A program made the position numbers and the translations under genes. A stretch of 64,000 nucleotides of DNA from Streptomyces sp. NRRL F-2580 (lineage in GTDB: Bacteria; Actinomycetota; Actinomycetes; Streptomycetales; Streptomycetaceae), in the NCBI RefSeq assembly GCF_000720115.1, contig NZ_JOIR01000017.1, forward strand, positions 159,223 to 223,222, written 5' to 3'. The notes below the pieces were generated by a model that saw only the letters and a list, made by a program, of their open reading frames with translations, ran no database searches and was not told the origin of the DNA. Of the stretch, positions 44,029 to 62,103 are shown piece after piece. Every line of letters begins with the position of its first letter. Positions within the stretch are counted from its first letter, which is position 1.

Positions 44029-44040
44029 CTACGCGCGTAG
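44029..44040. promoter_or_regulatory. Palindromic operator CTACGCGCGTAG upstream of pnp
   Basis: Perfect 12-bp palindrome, followed by a -10-like TACGCT at 44053-44058; the GTG of pnp begins 7 bases after that hexamer, so the transcript may be leaderless. The identical palindrome precedes deoC and add. An unknown nucleoside-responsive regulator probably binds here. Confidence 0.75.
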
Positions 44041-44065
44041 GCCAGGAGCGGCTACGCTCTTCTGC

Positions 44066-44872
44066 GTGAACGCATCTGTTACCGACCCCTTCGCCGCCGC
44101 CGACGCCGCAGCCGCCCGCCTGCGCGAGCTGACCGGCGTCGAATCCCACGATGTCGCGCTCGTGATGGGCTCCGGCTGGGCCCCCGCCGCCGAGGCGCTC
44201 GGCGCCCCCGAATTCGAGTTCCCCGTCACCGAGCTGCCCGGATTCCCGCCGCCCGCCGTCGAGGGCCACGGCGGCAAGATCCGCTCGTACAAGATCGGCG
44301 ACAAGCGCGCGCTGCTCTTCCTCGGCCGGACCCACTACTACGAGGGCCGCGGCGTCGCCGCCGTCGCCCACGGCGTGCGCACCGCCGTCGCCGCCGGCTG
44401 CAAGACCGTGGTCCTCACCAACGGCTGCGGCGGTCTGCGCGAGGGCATGAAGCCCGGCCAGCCCGTGCTGATCAGTGACCACCTCAACCTGACGGCCACC
44501 TCGCCCATCGTCGGCGCGAACTTCGTCGACCTGACGAACCTGTACTCGCCGAAGCTGCGCGCGATGTGCAAGGAGATCGACCCGAGCCTGGAAGAGGGCG
44601 TCTACGTCCAGTTCCCCGGCCCGCACTACGAGACCCCGGCCGAGATCAACATGATCCGCGTCATGGGCGCCGACCTGGTCGGCATGTCCACCGTGCTGGA
44701 GGCCATCGCGGCCCGTGAGGCCGGCGCCGACGTGCTGGGCATCTCCCTCGTCACCAACCTGGCGGCGGGCCTGTCCGGCGAGCCGCTGAACCACGAAGAG
44801 GTCCTCCAGGCCGGCCGTGACTCGGCCGCCCGCATGGGCACGCTGCTGACGCAGGTCCTCGCCCGCATCTGA
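44066..44872 (+). CDS. Purine nucleoside phosphorylase
   Basis: Cleaves inosine, guanosine and their deoxy forms with phosphate, giving base plus (deoxy)ribose-1-phosphate. 268 residues of the trimeric PNP/MTAP family. Phosphate-site VMGSGWAPA near 33-41 and GRTHYYEG near 88-95, base-site TNGCGGLREG near 119-128, and MSTVLEAIAARE near 204-215 as the family GMSTVxE block. GTG start immediately after the promoter elements. The phosphosugar mutase gene follows after 28 bp, so the ribose-1-phosphate released can be isomerised by a cotranscribed enzyme. Confidence 0.93.
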   Translation: MNASVTDPFAAADAAAARLRELTGVESHDVALVMGSGWAPAAEALGAPEFEFPVTELPGFPPPAVEGHGGKIRSYKIGDKRALLFLGRTHYYEGRGVAAVAHGVRTAVAAGCKTVVLTNGCGGLREGMKPGQPVLISDHLNLTATSPIVGANFVDLTNLYSPKLRAMCKEIDPSLEEGVYVQFPGPHYETPAEINMIRVMGADLVGMSTVLEAIAAREAGADVLGISLVTNLAAGLSGEPLNHEEVLQAGRDSAARMGTLLTQVLARI

Positions 44873-44900
44873 TCGACGTACGAGAGGTAAGGCGGAAGTA

Positions 44901-46547
44901 GTGCAGGAACAGGACGACCTGATCACCCGGGCCCAGGCCTGGCTGGCGGAGGACCCGGACCCGGAGACGGCGGCCGAACTCGCGGCGCTCATCGACGCGG
45001 GCGACACCGCGGAGCTCGCGGACCGTTTCGCCGGCACCCTCCAGTTCGGCACCGCCGGACTGCGCGGTGAGATCGGCGCGGGCCCGATGCGGATGAACCG
45101 CAGCGTGGTCATCCGGGCCGCGGCGGGCCTCGCGGCCTACCTGTTGGCCCAGGGCCACGACGGCGGCCTGGTCGTCGTCGGCTACGACGCCCGCTACAAG
45201 TCGGCGGACTTCGCCCGCGACACCGCGGCCGTCATGACCGGCGCCGGGCTGCGCGCCGCCGTCCTGCCCCGCCCGCTGCCGACGCCCGTCCTCGCGTACG
45301 CCATAAGGCACCTGGGCGCCGTCGCCGGCGTCGAGGTGACCGCGAGCCACAACCCTCCCCGGGACAACGGCTACAAGGTCTATCTCGGCGACGGCTCGCA
45401 GATCGTCTCCCCGGCGGACGCGGAGATCGCGGCGGAGATCGCCCGCATCGACACGCTCGCCTCGGTCCCCCGCCCGGAGTCCGGCTGGGAGGAGCTCGGC
45501 GACGGGGTCCTGGAGGCCTACCTGGCCCGTACGGACGCCGTCCTGACCCCCGGGTCCGCCCGGGGCGTACGGACCGTCTACACGGCCATGCACGGTGTCG
45601 GCAAGGACGTCGTCCTGGCGGCCTTCGCCCGGGCCGGCTTCCCGGCCCCGGTGCTCGTGGCCGAGCAGGCCGAGCCGGACCCGGCCTTCCCGACGGTGGC
45701 CTTCCCCAACCCGGAGGAGCCGGGCGCGATGGACCTGGCCTTCGCCAAGGCGGCCGAGGTCAACCCGGACATCGTGATCGCCAACGACCCGGACGCGGAC
45801 CGCTGCGCGGTGGCGGTCCCCACCGGGGACGGCTGGCGGATGCTGCGCGGCGACGAGGTCGGGGCGCTGCTGGCGGCCCACCTGGTCCACAAGGGGGCGC
45901 AGGGCGTCTTCGCGGAATCCATCGTCTCGTCCTCCCTCCTGGGCCGGATCGCGGAGGCCGCGGGCGTCGGCTACGAGGAGACCCTGACGGGCTTCAAGTG
46001 GATCGCCCGCGTCGAGGGCCTGCGCTACGGCTACGAGGAGGCGCTCGGCTACTGCGTGGACCCCGAGGGCGTCCGCGACAAGGACGGCGTCACCGCCGCC
46101 CTGCTGGTGGCGGAGCTGGCCTCGGAGCTCAAGGAGCAGGGCCGCACCCTGACCGACCTGCTGGACGACCTGGCGATGGCCCACGGGCTGCACGCCACCG
46201 ACCAGCTGTCGGTCCGCGTCTCGGACCTGTCGGTGATCGCCTCGGCGATGGCCGCGCTGCGGGCGGAGCCGCCGGTGTCCCTGGCGGGGCTGCGGGTCGT
46301 CTCGGCGGAGGACCTGACGCAGGGCACGGAGACGCTCCCGCCCACGGACGGTCTGCGCTACTACCTGGAGGGCGACTACAAGGCCCGGGTGATCGTCCGC
46401 CCGTCGGGCACGGAGCCGAAGCTGAAGTGCTACCTGGAGGTGGTCGTCCCGGTCGCCGAGGCCTCCGACCTCGCCCCGGCGCGCACCCGCGGCCAGGAGA
46501 TCCTGGACGCGATCAAGAAGGACCTGGCCGCCGCGGCGGGCATCTGA
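44901..46547 (+). CDS. Phosphosugar mutase (PGM2/phosphopentomutase-like)
   Basis: Alpha-D-phosphohexomutase superfamily member of 548 residues, the length of the PGM2 clade. FGTAGLRGEIGAGPMRMN near 49-66, the phosphoserine loop VTASHNPPRDNGYKVY near 148-163, the Mg site ANDPDADRCAV near 294-304, the sugar loop GYEEALGYCVDP near 379-390 and the phosphate site RPSGTEPKLKCYLE near 500-513 are all intact. It is usually annotated as phosphomannomutase. Its place 28 bp after a purine nucleoside phosphorylase suggests that it converts ribose-1-P and deoxyribose-1-P to the 5-phosphates, as human PGM2 does; this is inference from context. Confidence 0.9.
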   Translation: MQEQDDLITRAQAWLAEDPDPETAAELAALIDAGDTAELADRFAGTLQFGTAGLRGEIGAGPMRMNRSVVIRAAAGLAAYLLAQGHDGGLVVVGYDARYKSADFARDTAAVMTGAGLRAAVLPRPLPTPVLAYAIRHLGAVAGVEVTASHNPPRDNGYKVYLGDGSQIVSPADAEIAAEIARIDTLASVPRPESGWEELGDGVLEAYLARTDAVLTPGSARGVRTVYTAMHGVGKDVVLAAFARAGFPAPVLVAEQAEPDPAFPTVAFPNPEEPGAMDLAFAKAAEVNPDIVIANDPDADRCAVAVPTGDGWRMLRGDEVGALLAAHLVHKGAQGVFAESIVSSSLLGRIAEAAGVGYEETLTGFKWIARVEGLRYGYEEALGYCVDPEGVRDKDGVTAALLVAELASELKEQGRTLTDLLDDLAMAHGLHATDQLSVRVSDLSVIASAMAALRAEPPVSLAGLRVVSAEDLTQGTETLPPTDGLRYYLEGDYKARVIVRPSGTEPKLKCYLEVVVPVAEASDLAPARTRGQEILDAIKKDLAAAAGI

Positions 46548-60908: not shown

Positions 60909-60926
60909 AGTACGTCAATCCGTGGC

Positions 60927-62075
60927 CTAGGCCGATACAGAACGGCTGGTGGAAGCGGTCTGCTGGAACAGCCACTCCGACTTCAGCTCCGCGTAGCCGG
61001 GCTTGATGACCTCGTTGATCATGGCCAGTCGTTCATCGAAAGGAATGAACGCGGACTTCATCGCATTGACGGTGAACCACTGCATGTCGTCCAGCGTGTA
61101 GCCGAAGGTGTCCACCAGGTGCTCGAACTCGCGGCTCATGCTGGTGCCGCTCATCAGCCGGTTGTCGGTGTTGACCGTGAGCCTGAAGTGCAGCTTCCGC
61201 AGCAGGCCGATCGGGTGCTCGGCGTACGAGGCGGCCGCGGCCGTCTGCAGGTTCGAGGTCGGGCACATCTCCAGGGGGATGCGCTTGTCCCGGACGTACG
61301 AGGCCAGGCGGCCCAGGGTCACGGAACCGTCAGCGGCGACCTCGATGTCATCGATGATCTTCACGCCGTGACCGAGGCGGTCGGCGCCGCACCACTGGAG
61401 GGCCTGCCAGATCGACGGCAGGCCGAAGGCCTCGCCCGCGTGGATGGTGAAGTGGTTGTTCTCGCGCTTGAGGTACTCGAAGGCGTCGAGGTGGCGGGTG
61501 GGAGGGAACCCGGCCTCGGCGCCGGCGATGTCGAAGCCGACGACGCCGTTGTCGCGGTAGCGGTTCGCCAGCTCGGCGATCTCCAGCGCACGGGCGGCGT
61601 GGCGCATCGCGGTCAGCAGGGCGCCGATGCGGATGCGGTGGCCGTTGGCCTTCGCACGGCGCTCGCCCTCACGGAAGCCGTCGTTCACGGCCTCGACGAC
61701 CTCTTCGAGGGTCAGGCCGGCTTCCAGGTGCTGCTCGGGGGCGTAGCGGATCTCGGCGTACACGACGCCGTCCTCGGCCAGGTCCTCGGCGCACTCGGCG
61801 GCGACCCGGAAGAGGGCGGCCTTCGTCTGCATGACCGCGCACGTGTGCGCGAAGGTCTCCAGGTAGCGCGGGAGGGAGCCGGAGTCGGCCGCTTCGCGGA
61901 ACCAGATGCCGAGCTTGTCGGCGTCGGTCTCGGGGAGGTTCTCGTAGCCGACCTCGCGGGCCAGCTCGATGATGGTCCCGGGGCGCAGTCCACCGTCGAG
62001 GTGATCGTGCAGGAGCACCTTCGGGGAGCGGCGGATCTGATCCGGGGTCGGCAGGTTGGGGGTCTCGCTCGTCAT
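60927..62075 (-). CDS. add: Adenosine deaminase
   Basis: Deaminates adenosine and deoxyadenosine to (deoxy)inosine, the substrate of the phosphorylase at 44.1 kb. 382 residues of the zinc amidohydrolase fold: the first metal pair in LLHDHLDGGLRPGT near 21-34, HAGEAFGLPSIW near 217-228 with the third His and catalytic Glu, RLGHGVKIIDD near 237-247, and TVNTDNRLMSGTS near 306-318 with the metal Asp. The -10-like TAGAGT ends 6 bases before the ATG, so the message is probably leaderless. Preceded by the shared operator. Confidence 0.94.
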   Translation of the reverse strand: MTSETPNLPTPDQIRRSPKVLLHDHLDGGLRPGTIIELAREVGYENLPETDADKLGIWFREAADSGSLPRYLETFAHTCAVMQTKAALFRVAAECAEDLAEDGVVYAEIRYAPEQHLEAGLTLEEVVEAVNDGFREGERRAKANGHRIRIGALLTAMRHAARALEIAELANRYRDNGVVGFDIAGAEAGFPPTRHLDAFEYLKRENNHFTIHAGEAFGLPSIWQALQWCGADRLGHGVKIIDDIEVAADGSVTLGRLASYVRDKRIPLEMCPTSNLQTAAAASYAEHPIGLLRKLHFRLTVNTDNRLMSGTSMSREFEHLVDTFGYTLDDMQWFTVNAMKSAFIPFDERLAMINEVIKPGYAELKSEWLFQQTASTSRSVSA

Positions 62076-62091
62076 CTGCGCACTCTAGCTC

Positions 62092-62103
62092 CTACGCGCG
62101 TAG
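62092..62103. promoter_or_regulatory. Palindromic operator CTACGCGCGTAG upstream of add
   Basis: Third exact copy of the 12-bp palindrome. On the minus strand it lies 4 bases before the -10-like TAGAGT (62087-62082) and covers the -35 to -10 spacer of add. Confidence 0.78.

Follow-up and report, generated by a model that had tools for sequence, protein, structure and literature searches.

A conserved palindromic operator before nucleoside-scavenging genes of Streptomycetaceae and a LacI-family candidate for its regulator

The stretch of DNA analysed in this study (64,000 nucleotides of contig NZ_JOIR01000017.1 of Streptomyces sp. NRRL F-2580, hereafter the window) carries three exact copies of a perfect 12-bp palindrome, CTACGCGCGTAG, before the genes pnp, deoC and add. 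Comparison of sequences indicates that this palindrome is a shared operator, conserved within the family and located near the promoters of its target genes. The targets form one pathway for nucleoside scavenging, comprising an importer-cdd operon, a permease, a 5'-nucleotidase, pnp-pmm, deoC-aldh and add. The LacI-family protein encoded at locus L060 (SCO4158 type) probably reads the operator as repressor of this regulon.

The operator and its core targets

The exact copies are located at 44029-44040, 56057-56068 and 62092-62103. The original prediction had listed these three and no fourth, and an exact-match search of the whole window gave the same result. Markov models of first and second order, built on the window, predicted only 0.0025-0.0029 exact copies (P of three or more about 3-4e-9), and among its 49 perfect 12-bp palindromes CTACGCGCGTAG was the sole one present three times. 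When up to two mismatches were allowed, 5 matches were obtained against 4.57 expected, that is, at chance level. Core targets and their signals are listed below; -10-like hexamers were picked by eye, gene calls were obtained with our own GC-frame script, and operators are given without strand.

44029-44040: operator CTACGCGCGTAG before pnp-pmm
44053-44058, plus strand: -10-like hexamer TACGCT of pnp
44066-44872, plus strand: pnp, purine-nucleoside phosphorylase (TIGR01698 above cut-off); GTG start at 44066, 7 nt after the hexamer
44901-46547, plus strand: pmm, phosphomutase of the PGM/PMM family (PF02878-PF02880, PF00408)
52741-53640, minus strand: second, shorter gene of the aldehyde dehydrogenase family (PF00171, profile positions 5-232)
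53633-55069, minus strand: aldh, aldehyde dehydrogenase following deoC (PF00171)
55075-56037, minus strand: deoC, deoxyribose-phosphate aldolase (TIGR00126 above cut-off); ATG start at 56037, GTG at 56046 possible
56050-56055, minus strand: -10-like hexamer TATGCT of deoC, found in 9 of the 10 loci shown
56057-56068: operator CTACGCGCGTAG before deoC-aldh
60927-62075, minus strand: add, adenosine deaminase (NF006847 and TIGR01430 above cut-off); ATG start at 62075, 6 nt after the hexamer
62082-62087, minus strand: -10-like hexamer TAGAGT of add
62092-62103: operator CTACGCGCGTAG before add

From its context, the PGM/PMM-family gene is presumably a phosphopentomutase. As had been noted, the palindromes lie just upstream of the -10-like hexamers, with gaps of 12 nt for pnp, 1 nt for deoC and 4 nt for add; corresponding gaps in the same genome are 4 nt for the 5'-nucleotidase, 17 nt for the importer (nup) and 25 nt for the permease. 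The operators of this genome lie within the core promoter or at its margin, as would be expected for a repressor, and those of deoC and add fall between the -35 and -10 regions, a repressor's place. The near-leaderless starts of the original prediction also stood: pnp and add appear leaderless and deoC nearly so, in a similar way in most of the relatives shown.

The reading of the palindrome as a promoter element or a transcribed hairpin, instead of a protein operator, is practically untenable: it sits near promoters, but its distance to the hexamer varies from 1 to 32 nt, so that it cannot be a fixed -35 box, and its copies before pnp and add precede the point where transcription apparently starts.

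In the whole genome (8.45 Mb) 4 exact copies were detected against about 0.35 expected, and none of a reversed control pattern. The fourth copy is on contig C10, 15 kb from its end, behind a gene for a BMP-type binding protein and before an operon for a nucleoside-type ATP-binding cassette (ABC) importer, of which cdd is the last gene. Since the window extends to the end of its own contig, C17, both contigs may adjoin. All 4 exact copies of the genome precede nucleoside genes, so the palindrome is not equally frequent at unrelated genes. Places with one mismatch numbered 22 for the operator and 31 for the reversed control; mismatched sites were therefore counted only together with their position and conservation.

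Conservation and extent of the target set

The palindrome was sought in other genomes and in orthologous promoters. Genus and family names of the compared genomes (G numbers), SCO numbers and the gene names glnR and htrB were deduced from synteny, named relatives and papers. Exact copies were present in 25 of 25 genomes of the genus, the own one included (3-6 each), and in 149 of 150 genomes of the family (1-6 each, against 0-3 for the reversed control). Outside the family they are rare: they were detected in 3 of 16 genomes of one sample, in two cases within a predicted open reading frame (ORF) of one and the same kind, and in 1 of 26 of a second sample, selected for related DeoR proteins. 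Deep-branching members of the family hold variants such as CTACGCGCATAG and CTACGCGTGTAG, and in G049, the sole family genome devoid of an exact copy, deoC is preceded by CTACGCGAGTAG and pnp by CTACGCGCGTTA.

In the scoring of orthologous promoters, matches below 50% identity were left out and an ORF of genome G009 served as reference for nup. A site was kept before pnp in 13 of 13 loci (0-2 mismatches, 7 exact), before deoC in 10 of 10 (0-1 mismatch, 6 exact) and before add in 7 of 7 (all exact), one of the latter being a second add gene of genome G007. For nup it was exact in 4 of 6 loci, and one of the two misses (G111) is a locus cut upstream. The half-site far from the gene is nearly invariant and that near the gene is variable. 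Among the matches listed for 20 outgroup loci with nucleoside clusters, no site with two or fewer mismatches was found in the 300 bp preceding the placed genes; rows for the importer ATPase are excluded from this result, as their reference sequence was out of frame. The second adenosine deaminase gene of G007 (L036:3949-5019, 61% identical) lies far from the cluster, with the exact palindrome 18 bp from its start.

The proposal of one operator uniting pnp, deoC and add is therefore strongly supported as regards a shared and conserved operator, and the set proved to be wider than had been proposed. The remaining one-mismatch places of the genome were 17, nine inside predicted genes and eight outside; two of these eight closely precede genes of nucleotide metabolism, namely CTACGCGCGGAG before a purine-type permease of the NCS2 family (PF00860) and CTACGCGCGTTG before a secreted 5'-nucleotidase (PF02872), each with one mismatch. 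Promoters of the NCS2 permease had a site with 0-2 mismatches in 12 of the 13 loci scored, among which the G041 permease (61%) may be a paralog. Among 30 fetched permease loci, a site with 1-2 mismatches was present in each of the 12 at 64-100% identity; the remaining 18 (47-61%) had no site within about 350 bp. For the 5'-nucleotidase, a site with 0-2 mismatches was present in 6 of 6 loci in which the gene was found, one of them exact.

On the other hand, deoA, with a one-mismatch site in 1 of 7 loci, that of the own genome, was not counted as a conserved target. Extra exact copies occur at unrelated places in some other genomes and are probably due to chance: three in G011 (L039, L040 and L041, beside genes for an oxidase of the flavin adenine dinucleotide type and a phosphate-type transporter, beside a peptide-type transporter and beside an unclear gene), one in G010 inside a predicted ORF (L042), one in G020 between genes (L043) and one in G025 near no nucleoside gene (L047). 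In G024 an exact palindrome lies 28 bp before a gene for a Cof-type phosphatase of the HAD family (L044:5029-5964), a possible lineage-specific target.

The ORF of the importer ATPase of the own genome has no in-frame ATG, GTG or TTG before its N-terminal motif. At L005:5168-5170 and the corresponding place in L033, L050 and L038, 8 nt after a conserved GGAG, the codon is ATC in the own genome, G009 and G018 and ATA in G007, and it may serve as an isoleucine-codon start.

Candidate regulator of the operator

An even palindrome with central C-G is a trait of LacI-family operators. The operator under study is even, with such a centre, which suggests a LacI protein, and 13 LacI genes were detected in the genome. 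The candidate and the DeoR-family gene of the original prediction are as follows.

L060:631-1653, outside the window, strand not given: candidate LacI gene (PF00356 with PF13377, PF00532 and PF13407)
40374-41318, minus strand: DeoR-family regulator (PF00455/PF08220), disfavoured as reader of the operator

The L060 protein has an N-terminal LacI helix-turn-helix (PF00356, 49.1 bits, cut-off 27) and an effector domain similar to periplasmic binding proteins (PF13377, PF00532 and PF13407). Its orthologs were present in 16 of 16 family genomes (66-100% identity), and the best match in 14 of 14 genomes outside was 40% or lower; this range equals that of the operator and counts for the LacI protein as its reader. 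In 6 of 13 loci, lacI and the 5'-nucleotidase target are 1.7-6.7 kb apart. A half-operator, CGCGTAG, is located about 17 nt before the start of the L060-type lacI in 11 of 16 genomes, extended in G137 to a one-mismatch operator, and the heptamer occurred in 3 of 307 promoters lacking the operator. It was also present in the lacI promoters of 80 of 80 close named relatives, which are the best 80 of at least 554, share 91-99% identity and are not independent. Genome G061 encodes five LacI proteins, of which only those of the L060 and L061 types were orthologous to any of 11 own LacI proteins; this comparison covered 11 of the 13 own proteins (L059 and L063 left out), 5 of 5 of G061 and 3 of 8 of G051, and G044, G049 and G050 were left out. 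No single one of these points is decisive; in combination they make the L060 protein the probable reader.

Several observations weigh against the L060 protein as repressor of this regulon. The operator is missing before nup in G043 and, in G041, G044, G057 and G070, lies 32 nt before the -10-like hexamer of pnp, outside the usual core promoter. In 7 of 13 loci the 5'-nucleotidase gene lies away from lacI; the lacI promoter has no site in 5 of 16 genomes, and in the own genome its site has 3 mismatches. The regulator survey covered only the LacI, DeoR and neighbouring LysR families. The SCO4158 promoter, in addition, was used as a constitutive one, according to a passage of a published study (PMC4365011).

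That another regulator reads the palindrome, such as a LacI protein of the L061 type, the LysR protein whose gene neighbours add, or a protein of the GntR, TetR, MarR or XRE type, is considered unlikely. The L061 type also has an ortholog in the small genome G061 (88%), but no site was found upstream of its gene, the best having 4 mismatches. In the family loci read, the LysR gene keeps its place close to add, and it had no match in the 20 outgroup loci; it was nevertheless set aside because it is divergent from a transporter-like gene, its natural target. An even palindrome is, moreover, unusual for LysR proteins. With this transporter-like gene (L005:14682-17014), the LysR gene probably forms a separate unit.

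The DeoR protein had been the first choice of the original prediction. In this reading it would bind the palindrome until a pentose phosphate displaced it, on the model of the deo system of Escherichia coli. Its gene lies 3 kb from pnp and stays near it in the family loci read, and orthologs at 73-90% identity were present in 16 of 16 family genomes. We regard this reading as distinctly improbable on account of its phyletic range, neighbours, promoter repeats and own promoter. Outside the family, 25 genomes encode related DeoR proteins (47-68%), and the motif was exact in only 1 of the 26 tested; of these 25 DeoR loci 20 were fetched, and in none of the 20 did a nucleoside reference gene adjoin. 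Outside proteins with the same recognition helix (SEVTVRRD) have four promoters that share other repeats, TATGATCGGA being present in at least 3 of 4. None of 18 family deoR promoters had a site with two or fewer mismatches. The window protein is AgaR/GlpR-like, below the cut-offs for the E. coli-type DeoR (NF007961, 74.1 of 244 bits) and AgaR (186.8 of 260 bits).

The deoR promoter (window 41319-41395 and its orthologs) shows about 75 bp strongly conserved in 18 family sequences, appears leaderless with a GTG start and contains no palindrome. DeoR orthologs (66-70%) from outside the family, at loci L118-L121, lie beside genes for sugar-type ABC transporters, as judged by eye, and share repeats like TGATCGGA and CGGTCACA, probably their own operator.

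Proposed regulation and relation to known systems

Returning to the LacI protein of the SCO4158 type, it would bind as a dimer to the palindrome that precedes pnp-pmm, deoC-aldh, add, the ABC importer-cdd operon, the NCS2 permease gene and the 5'-nucleotidase gene, and would hinder RNA polymerase until a metabolite of nucleoside breakdown released it. Through the half-operator, lacI would be subject to weak autoregulation. Repression is suggested by the operator near the -10-like hexamer and by the low, jointly rising expression of the orthologs in Streptomyces lividans. In the RNA-seq data of a strain producing CelA, reference values were 5 transcripts per million for SCO4917 (pnp), 7 for SCO4914 (deoC) and 11 for SCO4901 (add), and the three genes rose together, with log2 changes of 3.70, 3.24 and 2.16, respectively (PMC6302529); the excerpted text of that article names no regulator for them. 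The SCO4914 promoter is listed among those repressed by WblC (PMC7157823), and deoC may thus have a second control layer.

Nearest solved relatives of L060 are CcpA and RbsR. In the alignment with RbsR, the segment RLRLEG reads DHVEG in L060, so that an arginine which binds sugar in LacI proteins is not kept. From the pathway, a nucleoside or a pentose phosphate might be guessed as inducer.

In E. coli, CytR (LacI family) and DeoR (DeoR family) repress nucleoside uptake and breakdown genes of the deoCABD type. The regulon described here would be new but of this known kind: it resembles the CytR/DeoR system in the LacI-family control of uptake and breakdown genes, and differs in that one short perfect palindrome serves the targets and that these include a secreted 5'-nucleotidase and a purine-type permease. 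L060 scored below the equivalog cut-off for CytR (177.7 of 436 bits) and below the NCBIfam cut-offs for RbsR (198.9 of 382), PurR (187.8 of 501) and CcpA (171.9 of 442.35). UriR of Corynebacterium, described as a LacI-family regulator of nucleoside use (PMC4052901), is likewise an actinobacterial control of this type, but L060 reached 116.8 bits against its cut-off of 550. NupR of Bacillus thuringiensis also regulates nucleoside transport, but belongs to the GntR/HutC family (PMC9430930), unlike the LacI candidate proposed here. The open-licence literature, searched by exact string, locus tags and topics, yielded no description of the operator or the regulon, nor of a regulator of nucleoside breakdown in Streptomyces.

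L060 is taken as the ortholog of SCO4158 because it adjoins a response-regulator-type gene taken as glnR, and it is thus a putative ortholog of the S. coelicolor protein. SCO4158 is reportedly linked to a pigment effect, going by the title of one cited paper, and another calls the gene ccpA. The available passages place sco4158 downstream of glnR and mention abundance under phosphate limitation and a guessed action on glnR (PMC9739823), as well as an ArgR peak at SCO4158 in chromatin immunoprecipitation (PMC3293853). These passages on phosphate and ArgR, and that on promoter use, contain no tie to nucleosides. The operator thus supplies a conserved target list and a testable role for a LacI protein known from side observations, and tight operator promoters could serve as inducible parts.

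Streptomyces recycle the nucleic acids of lysing hyphae during development. A more tentative reading, towards which our opinion is nearly balanced with a slight lean to doubt, is that throughout Streptomycetaceae the SCO4158-type LacI may act as master repressor of nucleic-acid scavenging, from dephosphorylation of extracellular nucleotides through import to central metabolism. If true, it would tie the recycling of DNA from dead cells to nitrogen, phosphate and stress control, in view of the ArgR peak at SCO4158, of the PhoP regulation given for the extracellular 5'-nucleotidase SCO4152 in a passage of the literature, and of WblC at the SCO4914 promoter.

With respect to the surroundings of pnp, the gap between lpd and pnp (window 43700-43920) is filled with GC-rich, near-identical repeats of about 60 bases.

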